Source: Polytrichum commune (taxonomy: Eukaryota; Streptophyta; Polytrichopsida; Polytrichales; Polytrichaceae). Taken from it: a stretch of DNA of 64,000 nt. The stretch is from contig OX485805.1 of the NCBI GenBank assembly GCA_950295325.1, forward strand, positions 5,828,501 to 5,892,500, given 5' to 3'. The position numbers and the translations under genes are program-made. The first letter of the stretch is position 1. Every line of letters begins with the position of its first letter. Below the pieces are notes generated by a model. The model saw only the letters and a program-made list of their open reading frames with translations. It made no database searches and was not told the DNA's origin. Shown piece after piece: positions 6,667 to 57,644 of this stretch.

Positions 6667-6669
6667 TAA

Positions 6670-9469: not shown

Positions 9470-9472
9470 TTA

Positions 9473-10332
9473 GATGAACAACTTAAAAAACAATCTCAAT
9501 ATCCAAAATTACATATTTGACAATACAAATTCTGAGAATCTCAAAACACACCAAGCATTTATTTTATAGCTAACTTGCATCAAATTTCGTCATCAATAGT
9601 TGGGTGGAACATTGCAGAGCCTTTCATAATAATATTGCATGATGGGGCGGCTTGGAATAACTTACTGCAGCCAAAGCGGGGCGTCTGTGTGTGGCATCCA
9701 ACGAATTTTATTTGGGCGATTATTCGCATTTAATGCTATATCCTAAATGATGCCACGAAATTCCCTATTAGAATAATCAAATCTAGGTGTCCCCAAATCG
9801 CCCAAATCTATCATGAGTAGAAGCAGTAAAGCTCCTCCATGCTGCCCCCACCTCCCACCCATCCCGTCACGTCACCGTTGGGTCACCTCGCCGACCCTAC
9901 ACATCGGCGACCCATCCCTCCACTCCGCTACCTTATGTTGCCGGATTCTCCACGTCGCTCCTGGCCATTCGCGGCCACCTGTTCATATGGATGATGCCCT
10001 TTCACAGACTGGCAGATTCATCCGCTGTTCCATTCGCGGCGAACTTGTGCATTGTCCACTCTCTCCAGAGTCCAGACTCCATATATGATAGACAATGTTG
10101 TACATGGTTTTTTTGTTGAGGCCGTCAGAGTTGGAGGCTTGGAGCCACATTGAAGTCTGGGCATTTTTTAGGTAGGGTTTGTGCACAATTCTCACTGCAT
10201 TCACTAATGAGGATGAGGATGGGTGTGGGTATAGGGAGTGGGCGTTACAAAGCTGGGAGTGGCATCATCTTATTTATGGAATTTGCAATTAACAGGTATG
10301 TGCATTGTTGTTTTCCGAAGTGGTATGTGCAA
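9473..10332. other. Spacer upstream of the hAT relic, nothing recognised
   Basis: A C-rich patch near 9840-10010 resembles 5'UTR or leader sequence, but no motif or convincing frame is visible. The hAT element's outer terminus may lie here; I could not find matching TIRs. Confidence 0.4.
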
Positions 10333-12434: not shown

Positions 12435-13171
12435 CCTCCGATTATACTTCGATATATTTCGATTATACTATGTTATCCATGGATTGCGGAAGTAGTACCA
12501 TCCCGGCTCTCACCTCTGGCGAGCTGAAGATGTCGCTGTAGTGCACGTAGGGCGTTGCCTTGGGAGCTTAAGGTGCTTCTTGGTACGCGCAGCAAGCGAT
12601 AAATTAAAGGTGGAAGGTAGGTGAATTGATGTGCATGTTCTGTTCGAGGTTTGATCCCGGGTGAGAGATTCTTCTTTCAGAGGGAGTGCAGAGGACGCTT
12701 TTGACTTGCGAATGGTTGGAGTCATGGACTTGTTTAATTTGAGCTGAGGTTTGGAGATTTGATTCAATTAAAAGTGCAATTGAGGACTTGGGCCGTGTGT
12801 GCCACTGCTCCCCCTGCTTGCACCGCGTTTGGTATGATAATTCCTGATCAGCTGGAGTGTGTGCTAGAGTAAGGATTTTGTTGCTTCTCGGATTCGGAAT
12901 GAGTCCCAGTGGTTTCAATGTGTCTCAAAGAAACGCAGTGGTTGTGATGCGGATAATCGTTGCACCGCTTCTTCGATTCCTCTGTTTTCGTGGACAATTG
13001 CCACAGCCGCAGTAAATGTTCGATTGAAAGTTTCATCTAAATGACTGTTAAGCGAATTACTAAGTAAATACTCATCTAAATGACTGTTAAGCGAACTCCT
13101 AAGTAAATATCTGCAATTAATAGGAATAACACAAACTTGATCTATCTCAAAATCTGCTTCAGGATATCGAC
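12435..13171 (+). promoter_or_regulatory. 5'UTR and leader intron of transporter gene A
   Basis: A leader exon ending at 12616 (GGTGGAAG|GTAGGT) and an acceptor at 13161-13162 (CTTCAG|GATATC) define a 5'UTR intron of 546 bp, 9 nt before the ATG. The same intron is present in copy B (41280-41755) and copy C (4711-5214), which supports its reality. Homology to B starts near 12440 only, so the core promoter of A appears different from that of B. Confidence 0.7.
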
Positions 13172-16100
13172 ATGAAGAAATCAGAAGAAGTTTCAGTCTC
13201 AATGACGCATGAGAATGGCCAACCGGCCACTGAAGCCAAAGGTAACAGAGGCATAACAGATAATCATGGAATAGGCGGCACCTTGGATGGCGGAGCTTTG
13301 TTTGTGCTCGAATCAAAAGGTAAGTATGGGAAGCATTCTAATTCATTTCTGCCTTATAATCTGAAAAGTTAGGGTTGATCATGCTTATGATGATGTAAAT
13401 CAGTAACTTGAATAAGCTCGGGAAATTAAAACACTACCAACATATGATGTAATTTTATTACAGACTGCCTGGATCAGACCATCATTTAACCTCCATCAAA
13501 CAATGTGAGACGTGCTTTCATACACCTGTCTAGAAGTTTGAACACTTCCAGTTGCTACTATATGTTGGAAGCACAGAAGACTGCTCATGATTCCTTGTGC
13601 AGAAAGAGCTATAAGCTTGCTCACTACTTGAAATGTAGGAAATTGGAAGCATGCGGGATTCCATCTCACCACATCCATTTCCAGTCCTGCAATCCTCAGC
13701 TTGCCCTACGCGATGGCGGGGTTAGGATGGAGTGCTGGAATTTTGGCCCTTGTAATTGTGACTGCGGTATCATTTACTGCATACATGCTCGTCTCACAAG
13801 TACTGGAACAAGCAGAGCTGGAAGGTCATCGTTTCCTTAGGTTTCGAGACCTGGGAGGTTATGTCCTTGGTGAGTAATCTTGACACTACTTCATGCGGTG
13901 ACTCGGCATCGACAGCACATGCCATGATGGACGTCTTGCTCAATTTTGTTTCATTTCATGGTCAGACAAAGACAATTGTTTCTCTTGAAGGCACATATAT
14001 ATATATATATATATATATGGCACAAGGTGATCAACAGAGATGAACTGATTATATCTGAGTGTCCTTGTAGGAAGAAGATATGGCTACTATCCTGTTGCAG
14101 CAATTCAGATTACTGTTTGCTTCGTTATTGTTATTGCCTGCATCATTCTTGGTGGTCAGGGTATGAAGGTAAACCCCCAGACATTTGTATTTTCCATATC
14201 ATTCATATTAAGTGACATGGATATCAAAGCTATTTTCTCTGGACACGGTACCATTACAGTGTAGGTAACTGACCATTAGGCAAAACATGATTTGTCGTAC
14301 GAATTTCATAGTTTTTGATGGGCATGAAGTCGAAGGCACGCGATCAAATGGAAGGAAACCTGATTTTCGACAGTTTATGTATGACTGCAGTTTATATACA
14401 GAATCTACACACCTACAGGTGGGACACAACTCTACGAATTTATCATCTACTTCGGGCTAGTGATGCTGCTCATGGCCCAGTTACCTTCCTTCCATTCGCT
14501 ACGCTACATCAATCTGGTGTCCGTGCTGTGTTGTCTGGGCTACAGTCTGTGTGTGGTTGCAGGCTCCATTTATGCAGGTGGGATCCATCTCTTGACCTGT
14601 TTGCACCTTGCAAATTTTTCTTTATGCTTTGCACATTTTAGACATCGTTAGGAAGTCACCCATGTTGTCACCATTCGGTCATGAGAGTGTCCAATAGATT
14701 CTCATCAGATAAGGTCTTCCTGTTGTGTTTCGGAGAAAGAGTCGAATAAACTTTGTTAAGAGCAGGTAATCTAATGTCTTCGATTTTATTTTGATTCACT
14801 CTCAACTTTTATCCTCCATCAGTGTGGGATACTCCCATCCTGGAGTTTTCCCATCTTAGGCGAAGTACTAAGCAGTGCAAAGGCTTCACAAGTTTATTTT
14901 GACTTTGGCAGGACATTCAGGTGGCGCACCAGCTGCTGACTACTCAGTCGTAGGAACTCCTATATCCAAATTCTTTGGAGTGTTCAATTCTCTGGCCATC
15001 ATTCTCACAACCTATGGAAATAGCATCATCCCAGAAATTCAGGTCACCTCAAAACAAAGTCGAAAGACTTTCAGCTGCTCCCCATCTCAATCTAAAAATC
15101 ATATTCCAAGCTTCTTGAGCGATCCATAGTACAAAGAATAATGTTTCAAAGCAGACTGACTCTTGATGTCATAGTTATCGATGTAGAACTTTGTGTACTA
15201 GCATCAGTCGTGAATATGCATTTGCTGATAAAAGTACATAATTCGTATTCCAGGCTACACTGGCTCCACCAGCTACCGGACAGATGTTCAAGGGCCTACT
15301 TCTCTGCTATTCAGTTGTAATCTCAACATTCTTTTCGGCAGCAGCATCAGGATATTGGGCATTTGGGAATGGTTCGGCAGGAAACATCTTCACTAACCTG
15401 GCGCCATACATCCCAAATTGGCTCGTATTTCTAGGCAATATGTTTGTCATCATACAACTCGTTGCCATTAGCTTGGTGAGTCCCCACAAGATGATTGATT
15501 TCAATGTGATTTCTTGTGTATGTGTGTGTGCATCAATTCACACTGTGCTAATAAATTACAAACCAATCTGTAATGCTCAATCAGTAATGCTTAGACAACC
15601 TCAAGGCTATCTTTGGCCATTGGACCATGTCCGAGGCTAGTCATCGCATCCACTTTGTGTTTTCCCCTTAGCATTAGCCTTGCTGAATTCCAGAAGAGAA
15701 TAGATAACTCCGATGTTGCCACCGGCTAGAATCTTCATCTTCCAGTTGATCTAAGTCTTTATTTAATTCCGAATATGGGCATCCCTAGAATCAAATGGCC
15801 CTGGAAAAATAATTGTCTCCTTTCAAGGTGGACACCTTGAACAGGTGCAAACAAGCCAACCTGTACCTATCTTCCCCCAAGGGCAAGCTCCTAGGTCGCC
15901 GATGGTTGATTGACAATATCTGGTTCACATGGATACCTTCCTATGATCGGGTGGACAGTAGGTGGTAGGGTACTCTAGAAATTAAATGCTATGGAGGTCA
16001 CCCGCCCAAGCACTATACCAAGCCGAAAGCGTATTCACCTCAGAGTTTTGCTAGTGCACTCCATTAGTAGTTGCTCTTACCTTGAGTGATACAACCTTTA

Positions 16101-21941: not shown

Positions 21942-23092
21942 TGTCGGGTAGAGAGGGTTCCGCCTTGGGAAAGCGCTGGGCTTCTGGCTGCAACTAGATT
22001 TTATCGGACCCGTCGAATCTTCTGGTCTTCAATCGAATCTTCCAGTCTTCTAGTCTTCAATTTCTTCTAATCTTCAACCTCTTTCCCGTCGACCTATCCT
22101 GTTGCGGCTCTATATGGATAAAGGGTAAGGGTAGTGTGATAAGAAACCACGGGCTTCGGACGGGTAAAACGGGACGTCAGAACACGAGCTGACGTCCGAA
22201 AGATTGGCTCCTAAACTTTCAAACCCACGGTGACCAGCAATCGCGCCTCACCAGTGGGAACGACAGAAAACAACCTTGTGGGTGATTAATCCCACTTCGT
22301 TGTCACAAACAACCTTGTGGGTCATTAATCCCACTTCGTTGTCACACAGGAAACAAATTACGATGCAGAAATGAAAATGCAACTAGCCTCCAAAACCGGC
22401 TTGGAATCACACACACAAGAAAAAGACAACGTGCCACAAGCAACCACACATTCGAGTCTTGAAGCCTTCAATTCTTTAATCTGTCCGTCTTCTATGGTCG
22501 GTCGAAGTCTCAGCTCTTCTTTTAAGAACCAACAGACTTCCCTCCACTCAAACAAGCACAAATCTTGATTGCTAACTTCCAAAACAACAAGTGAGATCTC
22601 TCATGAATCACAAATCCCTCGTATTTTATTTCATATTCTTCTCATAAACAACTCACACCGTGAGCTTCGAATCCACTTCTCTCTCTCTCCACAACTTCTC
22701 TCCCTCAATAATCACATAACATCTTTCCTTCACCGCCTCTCCCTATCCATGCGAGAGACAAAGTTCTCTCTTATCCTCATCACATGGCTCCTAATCACCC
22801 ATTGGTCCAAAGTAACTCAAGATAACTAAAAGACAAAAATAAACTATGAGTAAATAAAAAGGTAATCTATTTCTATCATTTGGTAAAGGTAACTAAGAGT
22901 AACTATGAGTAAACATAAAGGTAAGCAACTTCTATCCACTTCTATCCTTAGGTAATGAACTAAAATAAACTATGAGTAAATAAATAAAAATAATCTACTT
23001 CTATTCTTTATTATTTTTCTCCAAGACCAAGAATCACAATGCAATATTAAATACGTACACATCTATATAGTGTACGTATTTACATCACGACA
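21942..23092 (-). repeat. 3' LTR (1151 bp)
   Basis: Bounded by TG...CA on both strands (TGTCGGGTAG ... CATCACGACA). It contains a direct repeat of ACCTTGTGGGT(G/C)ATTAATCC about 42 bp apart (22271-22350), an ACGTC inverted repeat near 22170-22195, and a palindrome ATACGTACAC/GTGTACGTAT at 23051-23080. The stop codon of pol lies 13 bp inside the LTR. Confidence 0.95.
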
Positions 23093-26000
23093 TTCACCCC
23101 TCTAAACCTGCACATCCTCCGGTATGTGCCAAGTTTAGTCTTCTTCATCATCTTGGTCATCGTTTGATGTATTTTCTGTTGGTTCATACTCTCCTTGAGT
23201 TTCGTCTTCGTCAATTCGGGAGTCTGGATCCATAAGTTCTGCAAGCTCCTCATAGTAAAGCGTCCATCTCTTCTTTTGAAAACCTTAACTCTTTTCCCAG
23301 CTACAGGTGTTCGTAGAAGAGTCCCATCCAATTCGCGAAGTGAATAAGTGCCATTGGAATGCACTTTGATCACCACATAAGGCCCAAACCATCTTTTTGC
23401 AAACTTGCGCACCGTGCTATGTTGATTCTCCAAGGAACTATCAAATACAAGTACCCAATCTCCTTCTTCAATTTTCCTTACCCTCAATCGGTGCGTCTTG
23501 TCAAACCGCTCCTTGTTACTGAGTCTTGCAACCTTCAATCGTTCCAATGCCATTGCAATGTCTTCAGGCAATTTCTCAAGTTGTTGTATACGAAGCTCCA
23601 ACAATCTTTCTGTACTAATGTCATCCTCCCATGAAAGAAAAACCCATGTGGGAATATCTTCCTCCCCTGGCATCATTGGCTTTTGTCCATATAAAAGCTC
23701 CACAGGCATGTAACCCGTCACTGTACTATGTGTGGTTCTATCAGCCCATAGAGCAAATGGTAGCAATTTTGGCCAAATACTATGTTTTCCCTTGCAAGCT
23801 TTAACCAATGCATGAATGATTGGAGGATGTCCCCTCTCAATCTTGCCATTAGCCTCAGGATTGGAAGCCGTTGTTAACTTCAATTGCACACCATATCGCT
23901 TGAAAAATTCTTTGGCTTCAGCGACATCCAATTCTCCTCGGTCAGCTCTCATCCTACCAATGCTCCCATACCGACTAAAAATATCTTCAAGTATAAATCG
24001 GCATACATTTTCTGTTGTCTTAGTCCTCAAAGCTCTTCCTTCAACAAAGTTTGAAAGTTCTTCTCTAGCTAAAACAAGATACTTCATTCCCCACATTGCA
24101 TTTGGCATAGCAACCAAATCAATCATCCATTGGAAATGGATTGCAATGGGATAAGTAGGATGTAACTCATCTCTATGTCGTACCTTCGATTGCAATTGGC
24201 ATACTACACAAGATGATACAAATTCTTCAACATCTTTGTATAGCCCCTTCCACCAATATCTCTCCTTGATTTTTGTATAAGTGGCCCAAACTCCTCTGTG
24301 ACCAGCCCAAAGTGAATCATGAAATTCTTTAAGAACTTGGGTTTTAGTCTCAGAATCCCCAACCACTCTCAATGGCATTTGATCAGTTCTTTTCGCTCTC
24401 TTCCACAAAACTCCATCTCTTAACAGATAACCATAGGATTGATGTCTGATGAATTTGAATGTCTTATCCACCCAACCCGCTTGCCGCTTCATTGTACTCA
24501 AGTAAAGTCCAATATCTCTTAATTTTCCTTCATAAAGCTCGGTTGCAAAAGGTAAAGCTGAATTGGATGAACTGTCTCCATCAATCATCATCACATAGCC
24601 TCCATGTGACAATTTTCCTTCACTCTCAGGAGCCATCATCTCCTCCTCTTTAAAATACCTAGCTCTAGACAACATATCGGCAACATTATTATTTTTGCCT
24701 TCAATATGCATTAGAATAGGATTCAAAGATTTGATGTAGGCAATCCATCGCAACATTGCAATGTCTGGTGAGGAGCAATTTGCAATCATCCCCAACAAAG
24801 GCAAACAATCCGTTTCTAATACCACCTCTGCTCCAATCAAATAGTTTCTGTCTGCCTTTAGAGCTGTAAGGGCTCCCCATAATTCTCTCTTCACTTGTGG
24901 ATAAGCCCTTTGCCGCTCTGTCAAGATCCTTGCTCCAAATCGGATAGCAAATCTTCTTCCTTCTTCATCATCTTGTCCAATTGCCCATCCAATTGCAATT
25001 GGACTTGTGTCAACAGTCACAATTACTGGTCTTCCACAATCATAGCTCATTTGCTTTAGAACCGGTGGTGATTCTAAAATTTTCTTCAACTCCCTCATAG
25101 CTATATCTTGCTCATGTTGCCAAAGAAATTTGTTTCTCTTGCGCAATAGCTTGTAAAGAGGCTCTGACACATGAGCAAAATGAGGAATCCATATCTGATA
25201 GAAGACACATGCTCCTAGAAACCTCCTTACTTCGGTGACACTACTACATGCCTTCATTTTTCCTATAGCATTCACCTTCTCAGGATTTGGTTTCCTTCCA
25301 TAGGAACCACATAAATGTCCAACCACCAAAATTTCACCAACCCCAAACTTGGATTTGTCAATGGAGAGGGTCAAATTCACCTCTTCGAGTCTGCTTAAGA
25401 TTTTGGTTACATCATTGATATGATCATTCACAAAAGCTCTACAACCATCATCTTAAATTGTCGAGTCTTTTTTCTTCTCATCACATCCTTTAATTGGAAT
25501 GTCATCCACAAAGGGTATCGTCTTCTCAGGGACAAAGTCTCTTAGAATTTGATTCATGGCACTCTGCATATGCGCCACCGAGTTGGTAGCACCTTGAGGC
25601 AACGTACACATACGTACTAATCCAAGTGGAGTCTTCATGGTTGTCAAGTCTCTGCTCTCAGTTGCTAATTGAAATTGATCATAGCCAGAATACAAATCTC
25701 CAATGGAATAGATTGCATGCCCAGCAAATGCTTCTGCCACTTCATCAACAATTGGACCGGATCCTTTGTTTCTGATTGTGACTTTGTTGGCAGGTTGCAT
25801 ATCTTGGATGAACCTTAGTGCCCCTGACTTCTTCGGCACTGTAAACCAACGGTTTGAATATGGAGCCATTGAAGGCTCAAGTATGCCCATGCGTATCTTT
25901 TCTTTGAGTAACTCTACAAGCTTTGGAAGTAGAGTCCTAGGTACAGGTATAGGCTTCAAATCCCATGGTACATGTGGTACCGTGAAAATTACCATTGGTG

Positions 26001-26694
26001 CTACAACATTTGGTTGCACACACCCAATCTCATCTGGCGAAGAAGCGAAGGCTTTTCCATGCATAGAAAGCATGTCTTGAAATTTCTTCTTCTCCGGCTC
26101 AGTCAAAAAATCATCTCCTCCAATCTTTAATCTTGCCAAAGTTTCTTCAGTAAACTTGTGTCCAATCTTTCTCGTTTCTCTCAAACTTGGCTCATTCTCA
26201 ACTTGTTTGATATGCTCCTCAGTGTCAAAGGGTAGCTGAGTTGCAACTGGCTTCACCTTTTTAGCAACAGTCTTGTATTTTGTATGTATTGTTGCCTCCG
26301 GTCTCACCCCATTGGTTTTGAAATCACCAAGTATCGTCACTGTTTGAGAAATCTCATGATACAGTTGACTTGAGTGAATGCCAATAAGACAATCAACTGT
26401 CTCCATGGCATCATTTTCTTCAACTATATCCTCTAAGAGATGCACAATATCATTTGGCAACCCATTCTCCTCATAAATTCCGGAGATACATTCATCTGGC
26501 AAGAGAACCTTCATCTTTTTGAATTTTTTCTCCATTTTCTTTGCAAATCTTTTATGTACAAGATCCAAGTCTTTGAGACTTGTAAAGCTCACAAATCCAC
26601 ACTCTGTCACACCTAAAATTCCACTCCTAAGATCGGTATTTACATTGGGGAATTTAGCAGTTTGAATTTCCATAGCACCCGTGGCTCCCCTCAT
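23080..26694 (-). pseudogene. pol: RT, RNase H and integrase, with one in-frame stop
   Basis: ATG at 26694. N-terminal RT motifs are FTVPKKSGALRFIQDMQPAN, IYSIGDLYSGYDQFQL and the catalytic-site variant FVDD. A TAA at 25453-25455 interrupts the frame shortly after FVDD, and the same frame continues with CRAFVNDHINDV, then the RNase H region (VTVDTSPIAIGWAIG, ETDCLPLLGMI). The integrase has a zinc region (HDSLWAGHRG...CVVCQ) and DDE residues in MIDLVAMP, RADRGELD and NPEANGKIERG, and the C-terminal KRWFGPYVV motif. The ORF would be 1204 residues without the stop and ends inside the 3' LTR. It lies in the -1 frame relative to gag-pro, 14 nt after the gag-pro stop. The TAA is probably a single point mutation. 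Confidence 0.9.
23093..23103 (-). promoter_or_regulatory. Polypurine tract of the Ty3-type element
   Basis: On the minus strand AGAGGGGTGAA lies immediately before the 3' LTR, the expected place for the plus-strand primer. It also codes for the last pol residues. Confidence 0.8.
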
Positions 26695-26708
26695 TCCGCG
26701 TGTGCTCT

Positions 26709-29237
26709 CTAGAAATCCTGAAAGTTTGGAGATGTCGGTAGCAGATTCTCCCTTAGTTGGAGTCGGTGTCTCTCATTGTCAGGCTTCACCGTCAAGAATT
26801 GCACTGATTTCCTTCCATCCACACTCCGAATTCGGGCATAATGAGACCCATCATCCAACACTTTGGTTTCCATTCGTGAAGCAGTGATGAAAGGTTGGCC
26901 CAAGAGTACCGGGTAAGCACTAAGATTTTGAACAAAGAAATTTTGTTCAACCTCTACATCTCCAATCTTCGTAGGAACTGCAGGACAAGCTCCATACAAT
27001 CGAGTCCGCCCAGTATTGGTTGCTCTCATGATCCAGCCATGGTCTGTATCAATTGGCCATTTGCCTTTCTCATAAATATCACGAGACATAATATTGATCT
27101 CTGAACCATGGTCAACAAGGGCTAAAATGGGGTCATCCAATCCTCCAAGCTTCACCTTTGTCTCAGTGGTGGCCCTTGCCCAAAACAATTGATCAAATTC
27201 GGTTTTTTCTTCACTTCTTTTCATAAGAGAATGATCAGAGGTACATTCAAAAGTTTGTACCTCAACCTTTGGAGTTTCTTCATTCAGAGTTTCAATCTTT
27301 ACTCCGCAAGTATTTGCTTCAACATTCTCTTGATTTGTTGAAAATGTGATCTTCCCCTTCTCTTGATCATTTGCTAGAGCTTCACCATCTTCAACTACTG
27401 GATCATTCATCATAGCAAATACCTCACCAATCGCCATCTCTTCATCTTCGGTCATGTGGGTGTCTAAGGCAGTCACCATTACAGCCTCAGCTGTCATTTG
27501 TCTCTTCCTTTTGATGATGTCGATAATTAGCTCATGGAAATCTTTCTTGGCTATGCCAAGAGCCTCCCTCAAGGTGAATTCAATCTTGGCATCCAAGATT
27601 CTTTCTTCCAATACCCCCTTCAAGTCAATGGAAGTCTCAATGTCTGATTGGAGTTTGTAAGCAGGTGTCTTTGCTTTGGTCTTGCTTACATCCTCCTTTT
27701 CTTTGTCTTTTTTGCTGCCACTAGACTGTCCCCACTCTTTATCAGGAAGTGGTCCATCTCCTGGGTGTACAATGTCAGGATTGGCTGACTTTGACCTTGT
27801 AGGGATTTTTCTCCTCATTTCTTTTGCAGGATCATTGTTTACTGGAGGCCTTCTTTTAGACATTGGCTCCTCTTCATCCTCAACATCAAATCTCACACGT
27901 TTTTCTTCAACTGAAGCATCATGCAAGTCATCATGGTGTTTTCCTTCATTCAAAAAGACATTGATGTTGTTTGCATCAACAGGATCCTCCCATCCAGTTG
28001 CTCTTCTAATGGCTTGAGCCCCCCTCTTCATTTGAACATGTGATTGAGTAGATGAAACACCAACTGAGTATTGTTCCACTTGAACATGATACGTTTCAGC
28101 TCCATGCACTTGCACACGGTTGGTTTTTGTCATCTTCTCTTCCATTAACTTCTTCATTCCCCCTTTCCCGAAGTTAGTCCTCAATGGAGAATTTGAAGCT
28201 GCATCATGAATCTTCCCATCTTTGTAGATGACAAGATCATTCTTAAGGGCTTCTTCATAGGACTCACATCCTCTCAAAGTATGCTCAATCTCTTCATCAC
28301 ACCAAACACACCTCCTAGCATATTTTCTTCCTTCTTCCGATCGTTGAGAAGAAGAAGCCCCTCTAGCCTTCTTAAGTTCACCAAACTCAACTCTGAGTTC
28401 TTGAAATCCCTTGATAAGGTCTTCAAGGGTATTTCCTTCACTTGGCTTTGTAGCTCTAAATATGGATCCTGGAGCTATGGAAGGTGTTGAATCAGCCGAC
28501 AGCCTAGGAGCCCTTGGAGTCTGAATAGGCTCCACATCAATTCTTGCTCCAATACCCCTTGACCTTACACGTCGTTGTTTGGCCAAGAGAGTAACTGTCT
28601 CCTCTACCCTCCTCCAATCGTTGGTGAAACCACCTTCTGTCGTGCGATCTCCAAGAAGTAAGAGAAGCCTATCTTCAAGTCCTTCGTCAGCAGCTTGAAG
28701 AAATAACTCTGCCTTCCTAGTCTCTAGGAGATGTCTTTCTGCCAAAGGTAATTGGCTAAACTTCTTCTCGAAATCTTTCAGCAACTCATTTGGGCTCATG
28801 TTGTCTCCAGGTCGCCGCTCCACCCACTCAAGAAAAGATCTCTTAGTCATTCTTTCTGAGTCTTCTTCAAAATATTCATCTCGAAGAAGCTCAGCAAACT
28901 CACTCCATGATTGTGACCGCTCACGAATTTCTCTCACCCGTTCACAAATTTCAGGCACAACCGCCATGTCAAATGTCTCAGACATGCGGTCCTCACCAAC
29001 TTGGTGTACTTCCATCTCACAGATGTACACCCGCAAGAACTTAGAGATGTTCTTGCCATCAAATCTCCCAATATTAGCAACAACCGTTTTAAGAGCCTTC
29101 GTGGCCCCTTGTCCTCCTTGATTGGTTCGATGCTGCTCCATGAACAAGGCTAACGCCCCAAGAATGTCCTCCATGGGAACTTGGGTTCCACCGCCGCCTT
29201 TTCCGCCGGCACCACCTATCCCTTCAGAATCTGCCAT
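26709..29237 (-). CDS. gag-pro polyprotein of the Ty3-type element (842 aa)
   Basis: I start at the ATG at 29237 (MADSEGIGG); an upstream in-frame GTG is less likely. The N-terminal two thirds form the capsid-type region (YICEMEVHQ...FEKKFSQLPLAERHLLETRK). A knuckle, CVWCDEEIEHTLRGC, has CX2CX5HX4C spacing, one longer than the classic CCHC. A charged linker follows. The C-terminal protease has ALVDHGSEINIMS around residue 720 and YPVLLGQPFI. The active-site triad reads D-H-G instead of the usual D-T/S-G. Pol is a separate downstream frame, so its expression needs reinitiation or a -1 shift. No lesion seen. Confidence 0.9.
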   Translation of the reverse strand: MADSEGIGGAGGKGGGGTQVPMEDILGALALFMEQHRTNQGGQGATKALKTVVANIGRFDGKNISKFLRVYICEMEVHQVGEDRMSETFDMAVVPEICERVREIRERSQSWSEFAELLRDEYFEEDSERMTKRSFLEWVERRPGDNMSPNELLKDFEKKFSQLPLAERHLLETRKAELFLQAADEGLEDRLLLLLGDRTTEGGFTNDWRRVEETVTLLAKQRRVRSRGIGARIDVEPIQTPRAPRLSADSTPSIAPGSIFRATKPSEGNTLEDLIKGFQELRVEFGELKKARGASSSQRSEEGRKYARRCVWCDEEIEHTLRGCESYEEALKNDLVIYKDGKIHDAASNSPLRTNFGKGGMKKLMEEKMTKTNRVQVHGAETYHVQVEQYSVGVSSTQSHVQMKRGAQAIRRATGWEDPVDANNINVFLNEGKHHDDLHDASVEEKRVRFDVEDEEEPMSKRRPPVNNDPAKEMRRKIPTRSKSANPDIVHPGDGPLPDKEWGQSSGSKKDKEKEDVSKTKAKTPAYKLQSDIETSIDLKGVLEERILDAKIEFTLREALGIAKKDFHELIIDIIKRKRQMTAEAVMVTALDTHMTEDEEMAIGEVFAMMNDPVVEDGEALANDQEKGKITFSTNQENVEANTCGVKIETLNEETPKVEVQTFECTSDHSLMKRSEEKTEFDQLFWARATTETKVKLGGLDDPILALVDHGSEINIMSRDIYEKGKWPIDTDHGWIMRATNTGRTRLYGACPAVPTKIGDVEVEQNFFVQNLSAYPVLLGQPFITASRMETKVLDDGSHYARIRSVDGRKSVQFLTVKPDNERHRLQLRENLLPTSPNFQDF

Positions 29238-29269
29238 CGCGATGTTTATCCAGTTGCCCCAAAACACCT

Positions 29270-29285
29270 CTCAGTGGAAGCACCA
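29270..29285 (-). promoter_or_regulatory. Primer-binding-site-like sequence
   Basis: On the minus strand TGGTGCTTCCACTGAG begins 2 nt after the 5' LTR. It starts TGG, complementary to a tRNA CCA end. It is not the common initiator-Met PBS (TGGTATCAGAGC); I did not identify the tRNA. Confidence 0.6.
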
Positions 29286-29287
29286 AA

Positions 29288-30438
29288 TGTCGGGTAGAGA
29301 GGGTTCCGCCTTGGGAAAGCGCTGGGCTTCTGGCTGCAACTAGATTTTATCGGACCCGTCGAATCTTCTGGTCTTCAATCGAATCTTCCAGTCTTCTAGT
29401 CTTCAATTTCTTCTAATCTTCAACCTCTTTCCCGTCGACCTATCCTGTTGCGGCTCTATATGGATAAAGGGTAAGGGTAGTGTGATAAGAAACCACGGGC
29501 TTCGGACGGGTAAAACGGGACGTCAGAACACGAGCTGACGTCCGAAAGATTGGCTCCTAAACTTTCAAACCCACGGTGACCAGCAATCGCGCCTCACCAG
29601 TGGGAACGACAGAAAACAACCTTGTGGGTGATTAATCCCACTTCGTTGTCACAAACAACCTTGTGGGTCATTAATCCCACTTCGTTGTCACACAGGAAAC
29701 AAATTACGATGCAGAAATGAAAATGCAACTAGCCTCCAAAACCGGCTTGGAATCACACACACAAGAAAAAGACAACGTGCCACAAGCAACCACACATTCG
29801 AGTCTTGAAGCCTTCAATTCTTTAATCTGTCCGTCTTCTATGGTCGGTCGAAGTCTCAGCTCTTCTTTTAAGAACCAACAGACTTCCCTCCACTCAAACA
29901 AGCACAAATCTTGATTGCTAACTTCCAAAACAACAAGTGAGATCTCTCATGAATCACAAATCCCTCGTATTTTATTTCATATTCTTCTCATAAACAACTC
30001 ACACCGTGAGCTTCGAATCCACTTCTCTCTCTCTCCACAACTTCTCTCCCTCAATAATCACATAACATCTTTCCTTCACCGCCTCTCCCTATCCATGCGA
30101 GAGACAAAGTTCTCTCTTATCCTCATCACATGGCTCCTAATCACCCATTGGTCCAAAGTAACTCAAGATAACTAAAAGACAAAAATAAACTATGAGTAAA
30201 TAAAAAGGTAATCTATTTCTATCATTTGGTAAAGGTAACTAAGAGTAACTATGAGTAAACATAAAGGTAAGCAACTTCTATCCACTTCTATCCTTAGGTA
30301 ATGAACTAAAATAAACTATGAGTAAATAAATAAAAATAATCTACTTCTATTCTTTATTATTTTTCTCCAAGACCAAGAATCACAATGCAATATTAAATAC
30401 GTACACATCTATATAGTGTACGTATTTACATCACGACA
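29288..30438 (-). repeat. 5' LTR (1151 bp)
   Basis: Same length and, by reading, the same sequence as 21942-23092. As the 5' LTR on the minus strand it should carry the promoter. A TATA-like CCATATAGAG occurs near the R/U5 side at about 29453-29465, but I cannot fix the start site. Confidence 0.95.
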
Positions 30439-40700: not shown

Positions 40701-41764
40701 CTGCCCCGTCATCCCTCTCTCTAGAACATTAACCTCATTCATCCCGCGACTCACAAATGCCCTGCTTTCTCCATGTGGCATCAGTTCATCCTCTCTCTCT
40801 ACAGTCTCCTTTCCATCCCTCCCGGTTTCATCTTTCCTCCTCGCAGATATCCCGCTGCACATTGTTCACGTTGCAAAACGTCCACAGCCTGACAAGCAAG
40901 ACGATCTATTCGAAGCGCCTCCTCTTTTGAATTCCTCTCAGACCTCTCAGAGGTACAGATAGAACACATTTGATCTTCAGATTCAGTGTCGGGGAAAGAA
41001 AGAAAGAAGGAAATGAGCATTTTCGAGCTTGTTTTCAGCATGTTTTTGAATGTTGCGAAGCAGACTCTCTGTGCATGAGTAGATGTAAAGTATACTCACT
41101 TTATGCTTTACAGAGCAGTATATTTCGATTCCATTATGTTATCGATGGATTGCAAAGGTTTTACCATCTCCGCTTTCTCTAGAGAGCTAAAGATATCGCT
41201 GTAGTGGACGTAGTGCGTTGCCTTGGGAGCTTCTGGTGCTTCTTGTTACGCGCAGCAAGCGATAGATTCAAAGTGAAAGGTAGGTTAATTGATGTGCATG
41301 TTTTTTCCGAGGTCTAGTCACGGGTGAGGGATTTTTTTTTTAAAGGAAGTGCAAAGGACGATTTTGACTTGCGGATGGTTGGAGTCTTGGACTTGAGCTC
41401 AGCTTTGGAGATTTGATCCAATTAAAGTGCCATTCAGGCCTTCGGCCGTATGTGCAACTGCTCCCCCTGTGTGCACCGCGTTTGGTGCGAAGATTAATAC
41501 TGACCTGGAGTTTGTTCTGGAGTGACGACTTTGTTGCTTCTCGGATTGGGAATGAGTCTCCGTGGTTCAATGTATCTCAAAAACATGCAGTGGTTGTGCT
41601 GCGGATAATTGTTGCACCGCTTCTTCGATTCCTCTGTTTTCATGGACAATTGCCACAGTCGCAGTAAATGTTCGATTGAAAGTTTCATCTAAGTGACTGT
41701 TATCTGCAATTACCAGGAATAACACAAACTTGATCCATCTCAAAATCTGCTTCAGGATATCGAC
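40701..41764 (+). promoter_or_regulatory. Leader exon and 5'UTR intron of transporter gene B
   Basis: 40780-41000 matches the upstream part of copy C (4230-4450), including ATCCCTCCCGGTTTCATC-like and CGAAGCGCCTCCT blocks. The leader ends at 41279 (GTGAAAG|GTAGGT), and a 476-bp intron ends at 41755 (TTCAG|GATATC), 9 nt before the ATG. CT-rich stretches (CCTCTCTCTCTA) are typical of plant 5' leaders. Confidence 0.65.
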
Positions 41765-44700
41765 ATGAAGAAATCAGAAGAAGTTTCAGTCTCAATGACG
41801 CATGAGAATGGCCAGCCGGCCACTGAAGCCAAAGGTAACAAAGGCACAACAGCTTATCATGGAATAGGCGGCACCTTGGATGGCGGAGCTTTGTTTGTGC
41901 TCGAATCAAAAGGTAAGTATGGGACGCAATCTAATTCATTTCTGTTTTATAATCTGAAAAGTTAGGGTTGACCATGCTTACAATGATTGCACTGGTCGTG
42001 TAATTTAGTAATTTGAACAAGCTCGGGAACTTAGAATACTACCAACATATGATGTAATTTTATTCCAGACTGCCTAGATCAGACCATCATTTAACCTCCA
42101 TCAAAAAATTTGAGACGTGCTTTCATACACCTGTCTAGAAGTTTGAACACTTCCAGTTGCTACTATATGTTGGAAGCACAGAAGACTGCTCATGATTCCT
42201 TGCGCAGAAAGAGCTATAAGCTTGCTCACTACTTCTTGAAATGTAGGAAATTGGAAGCATGCGGGGTTCCATCTCGCCACATCCATTTCCGGTCCTGCAA
42301 TCCTCACCTTGCCCTACGCAGTGGCGGGGTTAGGATGGAGTGCTGGAATTTTGGCCCTTGTAATTGTGACTGCGGTATCGTTTACTGCATACATGCTCAT
42401 CTCACAAGTACTGGAACAAGCAGAGCTGGAAGGTCATCGTTTCCTTAGGTTTCGAGACCTGGCAGGTTATGTCCTTGGTGAGTAATCTGGACACTATCTT
42501 CACGCGGTGACTCGGCATCGACTGCACATGCCATGATGGACGTCTTGCTCAATTTTGTTTCATTTCATGGTCAGACAATGACAATTGTTTCTCCTGAAGG
42601 CATATATATACATGGCACAAGGTGATCAACTGAGATGAACTGATTATATCTGAGTGTCCTTGTAGGAAGAAGATATGGCTACTATCCTGTTGCAGCAATT
42701 CAGATTACTGTTTGCTTTGTTACTGTTATTGCCTGCATCATTCTTGGTGGTCAGGGTATAAAGGTAATCCTCCACACATTTGTACTTTTCATATTGTTCA
42801 TAAGTGACATGGATATGAAAGCTCTTTTCTCTGGACACGGTACCATTACAATGTAGGTAACTGACCATTGGGCAAAACATGATTTGTCGTACGAATTTCA
42901 TAGTTTTGGATGGGCATGAAGTCGAAGGCACGCGATCAAATGGAAGGAAACCTGATTTTCGACAGTTTATGTATGACTGCAGTTTATATACAGAATCTAC
43001 ACACCTACAGGTGGGACACAACTCTACGAATTTATCATCTACTTCGGGCTAGTGATGCTGCTCATGGCCCAGTTACCTTCCTTCCATTCGCTACGCTACA
43101 TCAATCTGGTGTCCGTGCTGTGTTGTCTGGGCTACAGTCTGTGTGTGGTTGCAGGCTCCATTTATGCAGGTCCGAACCATCTCTTGACCTGTTTGCACCT
43201 TGCAATTTTTTCTTTATACTTTGCACATTTTAAACATCGTTAGGAAGTCACCCATGTTGTCTCCATTCGGTCATGAGAGTGTCCAATAGATTCTCATCAG
43301 ATAAGGTCTTCCTGTTGTGTTTCGGAGAAAGAGCTGAATAAACTTCGTTAAGAGCAGGTAATCTAATGTCTTCGATTTTATTTTGATTCACTCTCAACTT
43401 TTATCCTCCATCAGTGTGGGATACTCCCATCTTGGAGTTTTCCCATCTTAGGCGAAGTACTAAGCAGTGCAAAGGCTTCACAAGTTTCATTTTGACTTTG
43501 GCAGGACATTCAGGTGGCGCACCACCAGCTGACTACTCAGTCGTAGGAACTCCTATATCCAAATTCTTTGGAGTGTTCAATTCTCTGGCCATCATTATCA
43601 CGACCTATGGAAATAGCATCATTCCCGAAATTCAGGTCACCTCGAAACAAAGTCGAAAGACTTTCAGCTGCTCCCCATCTCAATCTAAAAATCACATTCC
43701 AAGCTTCTTGAGCGATCCATAGTACAAAGAATAATTTTCAAACCAGACTGACTCTTGATGTTATAGTTATCGATGTAGAACTTTGTGTAGCATCAGTCGT
43801 GAATATGCATTTGCTGATAAAAGTACATGATTCGTATTCCAGGCTACACTGGCTCCACCAGCTACCGGACAGATGTTCAAGGGCCTACTTCTCTGCTATT
43901 CAGTTGTAATCTCAACATTCTTCTCGGCAGCAGCATCAGGATATTGGGCATTTGGGAATGGTTCGGCAGGAAACATCTTCACCAACCTGGCGCCATACAT
44001 CCCAAATTGGCTCGTATTTCTAGGCAATATGTTTGTCATCATACAGCTCATTGCCATTAGCTTGGTGAGTCCCCACAAGATGATTGATTTCAATGTGATT
44101 TCTTGTGTATGTGTGTGTGCATCAATTCACATTGTGCTAATAAATTCCAAACCAATCTGTAATGCTCAATCAGTAATGCTTAGACAACCTCAAGGCTATC
44201 TTTGGCCATTGGACCATGGCCGAGGCTAGTCATCGCATCCACTTTGTGTTTTCCCCTTAGCATTAGCCTTGCTGAATTCCAGAAGAGAATAGATAACTCC
44301 GATGTTGCCACCGGCTAGAATCTTCATCTTCCAGTTGATCTAAGTCTTTATTTAATTCCGAAAATGGGCATCGCTAGAATCAAATGGCCCTGGAAAAATA
44401 ATTGTCTCCTTTCAAGGTGGACACCTTGAACAGGTGCAAACAAGCCAACCTGTACCTATCTTCCCCCAAGGGCAAGCTCCTAGGTCGCCCATGGTTGATT
44501 GCAGTGCTGAAAATTGAAGCCCTCATATGAATTTCATTTTGAAGGGCTCTGAAATTTCAGCATTGCAATTGAAGGGCATATCTAAATCTAGGACGTCAAT
44601 GGAAAATTTTCAAAGAAATATAAAACTTATATTAAAATTATGCATGATTTGCATGGTACATGCTTCTAGTTGCACTGAAAGGATTTGTATAAGCTGCACC

Positions 44701-49339: not shown

Positions 49340-49712
49340 TAAAACTTCATTTATTCACTCAAACTAAATTCTCAATCTTTTATTCAAAATAAATTCTATC
49401 ATTCACTCAAACTAAACTCTCAGTTCTTAAACTCTCAATCATTCATTCAAATTAAATCTTATCATTCACTCAAAATAGACTCTCGATTCTTAACTTCTTA
49501 GTCCTTCACTCGAACCAAACTCTCAATCATTCATTCAAGCTAAACTCTCGATTTTTATACTCTCAATCCTTCATTCAAATTAAATTTTCAATTCTTAAAC
49601 TTTTAATCCTTAATTTAAACCAAACTCTCAATCATTCCCTCAAACTAAATTTTCAATCCTTAAACTCTCAATCATTCATTCAAACTCATTTCTCAGCCCT
49701 TAAATTCTCAAC
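49340..49712. repeat. Minisatellite of degenerate ~20-bp units
   Basis: The stretch is made of variants of TAAACTCTCAATCATTCATT and CAAACTAAA, alternating in register of about 20 or 40 bp, with point changes and small indels. It abuts the dispersed repeat at 49713. Confidence 0.8.
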
Positions 49713-50408: not shown

Positions 50409-50802
50409 TGTTATAGAGATGGAATCAGGACATAGAAAGGCAGCAGTTCGGTGTATCTCAAATAACTTGTTTGCTTAAGTTGACCCTTGGCTTATATACA
50501 AGTTGGGGGCCCCTAGACCAGGGTCCAGGTTGCGGGTCCTGATTTGACTATGGACTAGTGTCTCAGTCCTAGGCTCGTGGCCTAGGCCGATACCCGGGCT
50601 GTCGGACTCGCAGCCCGAGGCATTAAATGACTGTCAGCTAACTAAGATACCCTGGAGCTAAGTAGTTTAGTGCTTAGCCACACGTTGGTGGCTGCCCGCT
50701 ATTATTAGCGTTAACCCCCATGTGGGTGGTTAATGTTGATTAGCATCTAGACCTCGTGGTAGTTAACCGAGGTTGCTTAGGTAATTAATGATTACCTTAA
50801 CA
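50409..50802 (-). repeat. 3' LTR of the copia element (394 bp)
   Basis: TGTTATAGAG...CCTTAACA. It carries a ~25-bp segment (around CTTATATACAAG, about 50492) that is absent from the other LTR. On the minus strand a polypurine tract TTGAGGAGGAG (50803-50813) directly precedes it. Confidence 0.92.
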
Positions 50803-53180
50803 CTCCTCCTCAACCTAAGGTTAACCTCATTAAAAACTTTCTCAAGTAAAACCCAAGTCGGAATAAAACCTTGAGGAAGAAAAGAGTGTTAACAATTGGG
50901 TGAAGTTAAGTGTTGGAGTGACCTCATCCCGGCGGCATATATCAATTTCTTATTCTTATAGGCCAGGAGAGCTTTGGTAAGCATATCGGCTATGTTATAT
51001 TCCGATTTTATCTTATGAATATCTAATTGACCTTTATCTATCAAGTCTTGAGAGAAACTGAAAATATGAGGACTAATGTACTTGGTCATATCGGCTTTGA
51101 TGAAGCCCAAAGACATTTGTCTGATACAAGCGGCATTGTCTTCAAATATTGTGGTTGGTTTTTCCTCCTCTTGGATTTTGCATTGTTGCCTTATGATTCT
51201 CTCGATGGTACGCAACCAAGCGCACTCGCGGGCGGCTTCGTGGAAGGCTAGCAACTCGGCATAATTTGTTGAGGTTGCGGTCATGGTTTGTTTCGTTGAA
51301 TTCCACGATATTGGGGCTCTGCATTTGACGAAGATATAACCGGTTTGTGATTTTTCTGCATTCAGGTCTGTCCTGAAACCTGAATCTGCAAAACATGTCA
51401 TTTCAGGTTTGTTAGTCATTTGGTAGTATAATCCGAGGTTGGATGTACCTCGTAAATACCTTAGGAGGTGTTTGATTCCATTCCAGTGCCGCATCGTGGG
51501 TTTGGCTATGTCTAGCCAAAATGCTCGTGACAAATGCGATGTTGGACCTGGTGTGGGTCATGAGGTAGATGAATGAACCAACCACGGTGAGGTATTTCTG
51601 TTTGTCTATCACCTCCTTCTCCTCCTCCTCACGAGGTTGGTACGGGTCATCGTTTGTCTTGCTCTTCCCAATTATTGGCACAACCAATAGATTGGCCTCA
51701 TCCATCTTAAACATCTTTAACACTTTCTTATGATACGAGAAAGTGACATAGAAGATAGTACCAGGCTCGGCCTAGCTACTTGAGGTCATACAAGGCCTTA
51801 CAAATCCTCAAATTTACAAACCGTTCCGATTTGGGCTTAGGTACGGATTCTAGGAATCCAGGTGGATGATTTATATGGAGAATTGAGTCCAGGGTACCGT
51901 AAAGGTACGCGGTAACCACATCCAGTAAGTAGATCTTTAAGACAAGGTGGACTGTGAAAGCAAGTAGATACCTGAATAAAACACAATCTATCATTGGTGA
52001 GTAAGTTTAATCAAAATCTATCATGGGTCTTTGAATATAACCTTGGGCAACTAATTTTACCTTGTACCTTAGTACCCGTCCCTGTGAATCCAGTTTGCAG
52101 GTAAAGATGAGTTTGTGGCCAATGGGTGGTTTTTCAAGGTCATCCGAGATGTCCAAAAACATGTTGTGTTTTTGGAGGGATGAATATTCGGCCTCTAAGG
52201 CTGTTTTCCATTTTGGCCAATCTTTCCTTTTTTTTGCTTGATCCAATGTGGTTAGGTCGGTTTCGGGACTCGAGTCTAAGGACTTGGTGGTAAAATGAAC
52301 ATTGGGTTGTTTAAGTCTCTGTTTGGTGGGTGTTTTGGGAGGTAGGCATTTTTTAGGTAGAACATTCCCGGTTCTTGGAGGTAGGATGTTTTCAGTTCCG
52401 GGAATCGCACTTCGAATGATCCGTTCTTCGGTTGAAAAGCCATCCGGGACATTCTCGGCTAAGGCTTTGAGGTTAATGAGTTTGGTTGTTTCGATATTGG
52501 TCAAGGATGTGGGTAGGTCTGGGTTCATTATGAGGGTCTCCGGTGTACCGAAGTTTAAGGTTGAGGATGATTTGGTTAATGGTAGGGTGGGAAATATGTG
52601 CTCTAAGAATTCGTAATAAGAAATCTAGCCTTGAGCAAATTTCCGGTTGCGGGTTCAGGGTAGTGGATGATGGAGGGTGAGTCGTAACCGACGTAGATGT
52701 CTTCGTGCCTTTGGGGACCAATCTTGTATTATTTTGGGTCGGGTAGGAGGACCCAAACCTGACATCCAAAGGTTCGGATGTGAGGAGGGTGGGTCTAAGT
52801 ATTAGTAGTGCCGCGGCGTGTAATACCGCATGACCCCACATATTGGAAGGGAGGCGAGAGTGAAGCAACAAAGGTGTCGCAACTATAACAAACATCTCAC
52901 CGGTTTATCACCATTTCCACATTAACACGTATCAGCCCAAAACAATCATAGACCAAGTAGGTCTTGGTTTAAGCTCAACCACCCGACCATAGGAGAGAGA
53001 CCAAAGGTCCTCTCTCCTCCCCCGAGCTTCTTCTTATGCCGAAGCATTACTTTTACTTTCTATCTTTACATATAGTAAAAGTATCATATTCATAGCTCTA
53101 TCTTTTAGTTCTACTATGAATCTTCTATCTTTGGTTCTTATAGAATTTTCTTCCATCTTTTATCTCAATCTCATTCTTCC

Positions 53181-53544
53181 AATTGGAATTGTCTAATTCT
53201 AATTGGATTCATCTATCATTCTTTCTAGTTGGAACTCTCTAATTCCAACTAAATTCATCCATTCATTCTTCTAGTTGGAATTGTCTAATTCCAACTAGAT
53301 CTATCTATTTATTAAGAGTTGTCTAACTCCAATGAATAACATTCATCTTTCCAATTCTGGAGTGGTCCAACTCCAATGCACCTCATCGAGAGTTGTCTAA
53401 CTCATGTGCACGTGTTCTCAATATGGAATGGTCTAATTTCAATGTATTATATGCGAAGCTGTCTAACTCCAGTGCACATGTTATCAATCTAGAGTTGTCT
53501 AACTCCAATCCATCCATCTTCAACTAGGAGTTGTCTAGCTTCCA
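53181..53544. repeat. Array of about ten short palindromes with GTCT loops
   Basis: Units such as GGAATT-GTCT-AATTCC and GAGTT-GTCT-AACTC recur every ~30-46 bp: about 53181, 53227, 53273, 53315, 53357, 53388, 53424, 53455, 53480 and 53524. Spacers between them are AT-rich and contain CATTCAT or GTGCACATG words. The arms change together in several units. Confidence 0.85.
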
Positions 53545-53685
53545 TCATCCTCTGCTTATACACTGGCACATATGGTTAGAATATTCAATTATCCATCAAT
53601 ATTGGTAGTTACCTTACAATGACACTACCGTCGATGACTAGGTGTCCATACACCCAACCTCGTCATCATGGTATACATTAGATAT

Positions 53686-53837
53686 CACATTGCCAATTAG
53701 CCTTGTCGTTGAGGACGCCTCGTCGTCGTAGGGTGGCAACTAGGTGTAGTTACTTTACAATATCATATTGTCAATTAGCCACGTCGTTGAGGACGCCTCG
53801 TCGTCGTAGGATGACAACTAGGTGTAGTTACATTACA
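53686..53837. repeat. Tandem repeat 2 x ~78 bp at the end of the solo-LTR-like insertion
   Basis: Two copies of a unit with CAATTAGCC, CGTCGTTGAGGACGCCTC, GTCGTCGTAGG and CAACTAGGTGTAGTTAC (53694 and 53772 anchors). The second copy ends exactly at the insertion boundary. Confidence 0.85.
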
Positions 53838-55720
53838 GCAACCAATTGTATCTTCTTCACGAACGCCTCGGCTAGGCCGTTATGGGCGTGTTCATACGGG
53901 ACCGAGTAGATAAGGTTAATCCCGGATGCCGTACAGTAGTCCTCGAATGCGTTGGACCGGAATTCTTGGGCGTTATCTATCCTAAGGTGTTTGATTGGGT
54001 TGTCAGGAAAGTGATTTTTTATACCTAAGGAGGATGGCTAGGAGTTTGGGAAAGGCCATGTTTCGGGTTGGGAGTAATGTGACCTCAAGGTGGCTTCCCG
54101 ATGCGTCAACCAAGACGAAGTAGTAGCGAAAGGTTCCCGAAGGTGGGCTTATCGGTCCACAAATATCCCCATGTATCTTGTAGAGTGGCGGTGGCAGTTA
54201 TGTGGGCAAGGTCCATGTTGAAGGTCTCCGGATTAGTTTTCCATGTATGCAGGTCATGCATTCATGCATTCATGCGTTTTTCCGGCGTCAACCGTTGTAA
54301 AATTATGACCTTGGGTCAAGGGGATCATCCGCCGGAACACTATTGTTCCCGGATGCCCCAGTCTAAAGTGCCAAATGTTTGGCTTGGGGACTTCAGTGTT
54401 TAGAGACACCCTCTGCGCCAAGTTGCACTCCAACGTGGGACCTCCCTTCCACGCGGCCATACATACCTCTTCCTCACCTAGGGTGGGGCTAGATGCCAAG
54501 AGCTTTATGACAACCTTATAAAGTCCACCGGGGCCCGCGTTAGCTGTGGCAATGACCTTGGGTCCTTGCCTAAGCTCGATGACTTTTTCATCGCCCTGCA
54601 TCGTTGTGCAGAGGTGGATATTCCTCGCCCTCAGATCCCGATAGTTGTTCAAGCTCCTCGGGGTGTATGGGGCGTACATTGCCTTTGGGCAATCGAGGGA
54701 GAATCCCCCGAGCAACACTACAATTGCCCGGCCCTCCCGAAACCTTAAGGTCCGGCTTCCGGCCATTGTGAGTATTTTGCAATTGGACCAGGACTTCTCA
54801 CTTTGGAAGTGGAAGAATTCACCCTTAGTTAGAATTGTGTGTGTTGAGGCACTATCTAGGAGGGCTACGTCTGGGCTTGACATGGTCCCTTCATAGATAG
54901 CCATAAAATTTTCCACATCATAATCAAAATCAAGCATATCCAAAGGCTCAAAGTTATAATTTTGTCTAGGCTTATTGCGGAGTTCTTGTAACTCTCTGAA
55001 CATGTCTACAATGTATTGCAATGCCCGGCAATCCTTTGCAAAATGACATTTCCTCCCACATTTGTGACAATTCCCCGAGGTTGGTCTAACCTGTTCATAC
55101 TTAGTTGGGAAGTGTCTAGGTATGTGGGGGTTCCCTGTTGCAAATTTGTTATGCCGTTTGGGTGGGGTTTTTCGGAAAGAACCTCTTGGTGGCCTTCTTG
55201 AGGCCTCTGCAACGTGGACTTCCACGTGGTGTTGTGCCGGTGGGTTGTCCCGCCATGGTCCCGCTCCCGCCATGCCGTTGAGTTCCTCCGGCTCGGCGTC
55301 CTCGATCTTGGCGATGGTCGTATGCACCTCCCTCGTTGGTCGGGACGTCGGGACTCATCGTTGCGTAGGAGAAGCTGGTGGTGCTTTTCAGCGAGTAACA
55401 GGTGGGCCATGAGCTTGGAATGCTTCTTGAATTTCATGTTTCGGTATTGCTGCGAGAGTATGGCCGTTGCGGGTGGAAATGTGAACAAGGTCTTCTCGAT
55501 CTGCTCCGCCTCCGAAATGTCTACGCCACAGATTTGGAGTTGGGCGATTATACGGTACACTTCCGAGTTGAACGCCGAAAAATTTGGGAAGTCAAGTACA
55601 CGGATATTCGTCCAGTCTGTGCGGGCCTGAGGCAGAAAAAGAATTTGTTGGTGGTCGAATCTCGCATGTAACTCCGACCAAAGCTCCGCGGGGTCCTCAA
55701 TCTGTAAGTATTGAAGCCTC

Positions 55721-57270: not shown

Positions 57271-57639
57271 TGTTATAGAGATGGAATCAGGACATAGAAA
57301 GGCAGCGGTTCGGTGTATCTCAAATAACTTGTTTGCTTAAGTTGAGCCCTTGGACCAAGGTCCAGGTGGCGGGTCCTGATTTGGCTATGGACTAGTGTCT
57401 CAGTCCTAGGCTCGTGGCCTAGGCCGATACCCGGGCTGCTGGACTCGCAGCCCGAGGCATTAACTGACTATCAGCTAACTAAGATACCCTGGAGCTAAGT
57501 AGCTTAGTGCTTAGCCACACGTTGGCGGTTTCCCGCTATTATTAACGTTAACCCCCATGTGGGTAGTTAATGTTGATTAGCATCTAGACCTCGTGGTAGT
57601 TAACTGAGGTTGCTTAGGTAATTAATGATTACCTTAACA
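57271..57639 (-). repeat. 5' LTR of the copia element (369 bp)
   Basis: Same ends as the 3' LTR, with point differences and the ~25-bp indel, so the insertion is clearly older than the Ty3-type one. The sequence inside it on the minus strand begins CGTTATCAACACTG, a possible but unverified PBS. Confidence 0.92.
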
Positions 57640-57644
57640 CAAAA

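Follow-up and report, generated by a model that had tools for sequence, protein, structure and literature searches.

The window, by which is meant the whole 64,000-nt stretch of Polytrichum commune DNA that was analyzed, contains an array of ten tandem dyad-symmetric units at 53178-53544, and the sequence and its setting make it probable that these are the remains of a cis-regulatory array of palindromic boxes, now decayed, in the U3 part of an LTR retrotransposon. A single palindromic box (approximately GGAGTTGTCTAACTCC) would have been multiplied as segments of 46 bp and 66 bp were duplicated in tandem. In the active element the boxes were most likely binding sites for a host transcription factor, with TTGTCTAA as the putative core, and the dyad symmetry of the box suggests that the factor was dimeric. 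Bound boxes may have served as an enhancer, raising transcription from a TATA-like box that lies 36 bp further downstream in the minus-strand sense; the units would afterwards have decayed, mostly through transitions.

The units form two classes that differ in arm length and spacing:

53178-53299, plus strand: units 1-3, long-arm palindromes with a 46-bp period, 11-13 of 13 arm positions Watson-Crick, unusual local folding
53312-53544, plus strand: units 4-10, short-arm palindromes spaced 30-44 bp apart within a 66-bp higher-order repeat, 4-5 of 6 inner positions Watson-Crick

The 4-nt centers of the ten units start at 53191, 53237, 53283, 53321, 53365, 53395, 53431, 53461, 53497, and 53533, giving center-to-center spacings of 46, 46, 38, 44, 30, 36, 30, 36, and 36. 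The center is GTCT in eight of the ten, CTCT in unit 2, and GTCC in unit 5, and the majority consensus is GGAGTT-GTCT-AACTCC. The first-pass annotation, which reported about ten palindromes with a conserved GTCT center, CTCT and GTCC variants, and recurrence about every 30-46 bp, was thus correct on each of these points, and the array is far above chance expectation. Allowing up to three mismatches on both strands of the window, GGAGTTGTCTAACTCC has nine matches against 0.41 expected, eight of them in the array and all on its plus strand, with one outside at 44937. Perfect palindromes with a 4-nt loop and arms of at least 5 bp number five, whereas 2000 shuffles average 0.43 and never exceed four. 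Such palindromes are denser elsewhere in the window, reaching 11 per 380 bp around 14000 in a stretch with a TA dinucleotide run. The annotation had also described arms of 5-10 bp that stay mostly complementary, and this is borne out in units 1-3, where 12, 11, and 13 of the 13 arm positions are Watson-Crick (unit 3 being a perfect 13-bp palindrome), but not in units 4-10, with only 4-5 of 6 inner positions. Across all ten units, 48 of the 60 inner-arm cells (6-bp arms) are Watson-Crick, and at least one inner cell is not in nine of the ten. The array is 36% GC and holds three CpG dinucleotides (observed/expected 0.27). Among other short palindromes in its spacers are CACGTG at 53409-53414, which we take to be a G-box core, and GTGCAC, which follows units 6 and 8.

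Since the 46-bp and 66-bp periods are both direct repeats, tandem duplication is the most likely way for the array to have grown. Ungapped self-identity, computed over 52885-53837 (one base less than the insert described below), is highest at offsets 66 (0.468) and 46 (0.433), and these peaks, together with the finding that all eight in-array consensus matches lie on one strand, are as direct duplication predicts.

Whether the two arms of a unit have changed together was addressed in three ways. In a partner permutation, Watson-Crick pairs with the unit's own partner were compared with those formed with permuted partners (20000 permutations). For ten units the observed counts were 48 against a mean of 43.9 with 6-bp arms (reached by 1254/20000), 60 against 53.6 with 8-bp arms (579/20000), and 78 against 64.9 with 13-bp arms (72/20000). 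For units 4-10 alone they were 32 against 30.6 at 6 bp, a value matched by 5412/20000 permutations (27%), 38 against 35.4 at 8 bp (3628/20000), and 42 against 38.6 at 13 bp (2843/20000). For units 1-3 at 13 bp, two of the six possible arrangements, the true one included, reach the observed value. The overall permutation signal is therefore mainly the difference between the two unit classes, and units 4-10 show no unit-specific matching of arms.

Column shuffles (n=500), which ignore relatedness among units, gave a mixed result. With 13-bp arms, paired cells (64.6% vs 57.3%; 0/500), two-sided cells (12 vs 6.1; 1/500), and covariation (0.221 vs 0.144; 1/500) stood above the shuffles, covariation still reaching 0.194 with partners slid by +1; two-sided pairs numbered 7 vs 4.7 (41/500) and further pair types 11 vs 10.7 (288/500). 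Within the inner 6 bp the corresponding values were 86.7% vs 82.7% for paired cells (24/500), 4 vs 2.3 for two-sided cells (71/500), and 0.278 vs 0.208 for covariation (16/500), with two-sided pairs at one of six vs a mean of 1.6 (485/500). The third approach simulated duplication and drift along random coalescent trees, each run starting with a perfect palindrome, with two roots for the ten-unit inner arms, runs kept when no more than 20% off the observed divergence, and no rate variation between sites. For the inner arms of all ten units, two-sided cells (P 0.13) and two-sided pairs (P 0.62) were as in the simulation, and for units 4-10 likewise (P 0.46 for each; paired cells P 0.06). In units 1-3, two-sided changes (P 0.042) and paired cells (P 0.006) exceeded the simulation over 13 bp, as they did over the outer 7 bp (P 0.043 and 0.002). 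A counterpoint to pure drift is that the pairing of 48 of 60 inner cells exceeds the simulation (P 0.015-0.016), so that some symmetry has been kept beyond drift; as all sites change at one rate under this null, conservation of the sequence may contribute, along with pairing, to the low P values for paired cells.

The excess of pairing is thus modest, and two-sided changes exceed drift only in units 1-3. Covariation proved weaker than first claimed, and matching changes in the two arms are largely what duplication and ordinary mutation give. The first-pass annotation had seen in them a constraint on the foldback, or correction of one arm by the other, a proposal that finds no support in the absence of an own-partner preference in units 4-10, in inner two-sided changes close to drift, or in the strand-neutral wobbles considered below. 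It had set that proposal against simple duplication of one palindrome with random drift, and it is largely the latter that the 46-bp and 66-bp direct repeats describe, the exception being units 1-3, in which two outer pairs, at positions 9 and 11, changed on both sides between unit 1 and units 2-3 (P 0.04).

These results bear most directly on the possibility that the array is a plain minisatellite that happened to begin from a palindrome and never had a function. The 46-bp and 66-bp direct repeats, the predominance of transitions among inner-arm differences (84%, with a mean difference between units of 0.28), and inner two-sided changes of the kind that drift yields are all consistent with it. 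Against it, the five invariant columns all lie within the center or inner arms while most outer columns have diverged, and the position of the array resembles a known control-region layout. A functionless minisatellite is judged unlikely, and the cis-regulatory reading is preferred.

Mirrored changes in two arms may also have a mutational source. In a palindrome both arms present the same local context on opposite strands; position 3, which does change, is the C of AACTCC whichever strand is read. If C-to-T mutation depends on context, it could therefore strike both arms at mirrored positions, and selection would not be needed. The array is a single decayed copy, and its main value is as a caution: dyad symmetry alone puts both arms in the same mutational context, so that covariation which seems to link units does not establish structure.

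A further process that would make arms match without selection is template switching at a quasi-palindrome, in which a nascent strand folds back during replication or reverse transcription and copies one arm from the other. The mechanism is documented (PMC8794818, PMC3820800), and is described as making and keeping perfect stems with multi-base compensatory changes, in cases that come from reconstructed histories of RNA genes, whereas the hints here lie within one locus (PMC8794818). The double changes at positions 9 and 11 and the perfect 13-bp palindrome of unit 3 fit such copying, as does a relationship between two other units:

53455-53542, plus strand: units 8 and 10, forming an inverted repeat with each other (GAAGCT..AACTCC / GGAGTT..AGCTTC), 16-nt arms 75% complementary, center not inverted

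Unit 8's left arm is complementary to unit 10's right arm at 6/6 positions, compared with only 4/6 between each and its own partner, and these two arms have two departures from the consensus in common. The left arm of unit 10 and the right arm of unit 8 also match at 6/6, but these are ordinary consensus arms, and unit 10's left arm matches equally well the right arms found in units 4, 5, and 9, so only one of the two matches is special, and it was noticed post hoc among 45 unit pairs. Own partners are not preferred in units 4-10, and the non-Watson-Crick inner cells that remain in nine of ten units are also unfavorable to routine copying between arms. Template switching is on balance rather unlikely as the explanation of the array. 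A bolder version, which must be considered very doubtful, would have fold-back copying during the element's own reverse transcription both make and renew the palindromes, within units (positions 9 and 11 of units 1-3) and between them (the unit 8 left and unit 10 right arms, in either direction, with GTCT kept), so that dyad sites would arise by mutation, not selection. If true, it would give retrotransposons a mutational route to building symmetric factor-binding sites.

The folding of the array has to be considered separately, as the LTR transcript might carry an array of hairpins with a fixed loop, under selection for packaging, for dimerization, or as a small-RNA precursor. A 386-nt region folds better than 100 of 100 shuffles in each of three tests, with z of -7.11 and -5.05 for RNA of the two strands and -8.19 for DNA. 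In a GC-corrected local scan of 2130 windows of 120 nt, eight windows are listed for the array, and those starting at 53191, 53221, and 53251 rank 10, 5, and 35 on the plus strand and 11, 3, and 62 on the minus strand. These values favor a structured RNA, and palindrome-rich Sirevirus LTR regions are described as hotspots of small-RNA mapping (PMC5311732, PMC10760457). The other five listed windows (starting at 53281-53401) fold ordinarily, with ranks of 508-1317 (plus) and 360-1545 (minus), so that unusually good folding is confined to units 1-3. An RNA fold kept on one strand should also have wobbles that favor that strand; of the 12 non-Watson-Crick inner cells, four are G.U on the plus strand, five on the minus strand, and three on neither, which shows no preference. 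Inner two-sided pairs, as given above, are not above shuffles. A search of Rfam found no family at gathering score, the three matches up to E 5 all being far below (best 18.7 bits); the microRNA families among the matches were rejected on these scores. Taken together, a selected RNA structure is distinctly improbable.

The cis-regulatory reading draws on the setting of the array as well as on its units. The array lies within an insert with the following features:

52884-53837, minus strand: 954-bp insert, probable solo LTR, from its ends and flanks; adjoins an integrase remnant
52879-52883, no strand: GCAAC on the left, one half of a probable 5-bp target-site duplication, from sequence reading and a check
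53838-53842, no strand: GCAAC on the right, its probable counterpart, on the same basis
53682-53837, plus strand: two 78-bp tandem copies, 91% identical by repeat comparison, at what would be the 5' end of the LTR
53137-53142, minus strand: TATAAG, a TATA-like box 36 bp beyond the array, from a pattern match

The first-pass annotation had placed the palindromes in a solo-LTR-like insertion of 954 bp; that length was confirmed, as were flanking GCAAC copies, and a solo LTR fits the context and is the simplest reading. The boundary was picked to fit the GCAAC flanks, and an extra GCAAC lies at 52865-52869, so the 5-bp flank match is not proof and could be due to chance. On the minus strand the insert reads TGTAATGTAAC...GTTATA, its TG...TA ends being one transition from TG...CA, which suggests that a final CA has decayed to TA. 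A BLAST search of 52880-53843 against the window (E 0.01) found only the insert itself and its own internal repeats. Around the insert lie the remains of a copia element, whose LTR-like repeats (50409-50803 and 57271-57640) are 89% identical, and the insert sits between minus-strand remnants matching GAG-pre-integrase (54257-55354, E 6.1e-05) and RVT_2 (52010-52624, E 4.7e-06), both matches under the curated cut-off. Three stop-free pieces of the flanks were searched for integrase: the right-flank piece abutting the insert weakly matches the end of the integrase core (PF00665, E 0.0063, 17.2 bits vs a cut-off of 32.6), and neither the left-flank piece nor another right-flank piece has an integrase match. 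The left-flank piece presumably continues the copia integrase. The array would thus now sit in a solo LTR within a decayed copia element.

If the minus strand is taken as the sense strand, the two 78-bp repeats come first, the array follows at 294-660 (367 bp, or 31-69% of LTR length), and TATAAG stands 36 bp further on, at 73%. TATAAG was chosen by the analyst from four matches to the TATA-like patterns tried in the insert, all of them on the minus strand. This order resembles that of an LTR with factor-binding boxes ahead of the promoter. Heat-shock, CCAAT, auxin, and MADS sites were considered as candidates for such boxes, and none of the conclusions depends on them. Among the possibilities first raised, a protein-binding array would suit this context and the Sirevirus precedent, and a foldback under constraint or correction lacks support. 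A second foldback in the insert, at 52991-53018 (AGGAGAGAGACC / GGTCCTCTCTCCT), would lie downstream of the putative promoter in the minus sense; the 101-nt stretch around it folds with z -2.22, and 4 of 200 shuffles are as good.

Other repeats in the window were also noted. A separate tandem array at 49353-49711 is rich in units like AAACTCTCAATC, with nested periods of 20 to 105. A gypsy-type element at 21942-30438 is apparently young, its two 1151-bp LTRs (21942-23092 and 29288-30438) being 100% identical; it has matches to reverse transcriptase, RNase H, and the integrase zinc-binding domain, and one of its reading frames matches DUF4100. Together with the copia remains, this element gives the window a eukaryotic character. 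A strong foldback at 9214-9284, with two 34-nt arms (88% complementary) and a 3-nt loop, contributes the windows that rank first on both strands in the GC-corrected fold scan; it falls in a stretch at 8954-9473 with an inverted 86% copy at 6666-7168. A duplicated stretch (12453-15912 and 41119-44501, 92% identical) has in each copy an ORF matching part of Aa_trans (amino-acid transporter).

Searches with a two-unit pattern extended beyond the window. In viral contigs there were no matches, as in further viral scans. In prokaryote genomes four loci were found (L001-L004, in a Flavobacteriaceae MAG, two Tenacibaculum, and Leeuwenhoekiella); L003 and 101 bases of L001 were inspected and neither was deemed related, the L003 match sitting inside a 741-aa open reading frame. 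In the Flavobacteriaceae MAG (L001:4421-4480), GGAGTTGTCTAACTCC occurs twice in tandem as a short tandem duplicate that looks unrelated and is probably a coincidence.

The first-pass annotation's statement that it knew of no named plant repeat of this form was too strong, as palindromic repeated motifs have been published for Sirevirus LTRs (PMC2829016), and the array is roughly alike in plan to these, without being called a Sirevirus. As described there, the Sirevirus motifs start 200-400 bp into the LTR, extend for 300-500 bp, and are followed by a TATA box; an element carries eight or more of these RM boxes in total, and Table 3 of PMC2829016 places 3-14 within its 3' LTR. The array here shares the many palindromic boxes (ten units in one LTR-like insert), the few bases between arms, and symmetry that is kept although sequence differs between elements; in the minus sense it would also share a start 294 bp in and a length of 367 bp (PMC2829016). 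In the Sirevirus plan the boxes are grouped within the upper half of the LTR and the TATA box comes soon after them, near the middle, whereas here array and TATA-like box lie further in, the latter one of four minus-strand matches (PMC2829016). The CGG-CCG core, which the same account gives as missing only from Tnd-1, is not in the consensus GGAGTT-GTCT-AACTCC, and the reported CpG island of the motif cluster has no counterpart at 36% GC and a CpG ratio of 0.27, although decay could have lowered CpG (PMC2829016). A Sirevirus poly-C integrase signal is placed about 21 bp away from the 3' end of the LTR (PMC2829016); by eye, neither the final 60 bases in the minus sense nor the plus-strand end of the insert shows a C run. 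Sireviruses are further marked by their gag-pol phylogeny, multiple polypurine tracts, and an AT/TG attachment site; the insert contains no internal domain. Motif identities in that account are 66.5-100%, to be set beside the mean inner-arm difference of 0.28 here, and classic copia elements are described as being without such motifs (PMC2829016). If the preferred reading holds, a box without the CGG-CCG core would be added to the palindromic boxes of plant LTR control regions.

Other plant elements offer similar parallels. Like the LTR palindromes of maize, this would be a control-region array of palindromes able to form hairpins (PMC5311732, PMC10760457); the maize motif CACCGGACNNNGTCCGGTG differs from it in sequence (PMC10760457). 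Arrays of sometimes palindromic repeats are reported from the cis-regulatory regions of several transposable element families (PMC10760457). In ONSEN, a strong heat-responsive element is reported to have evolved by duplication of a proto-element (PMC5059998). Like that of ONSEN/COPIA78, the array appears to be an LTR element grown by duplication to which a factor may have bound, the factor being heat shock factor in ONSEN/COPIA78 and a putative one here (PMC5059998).
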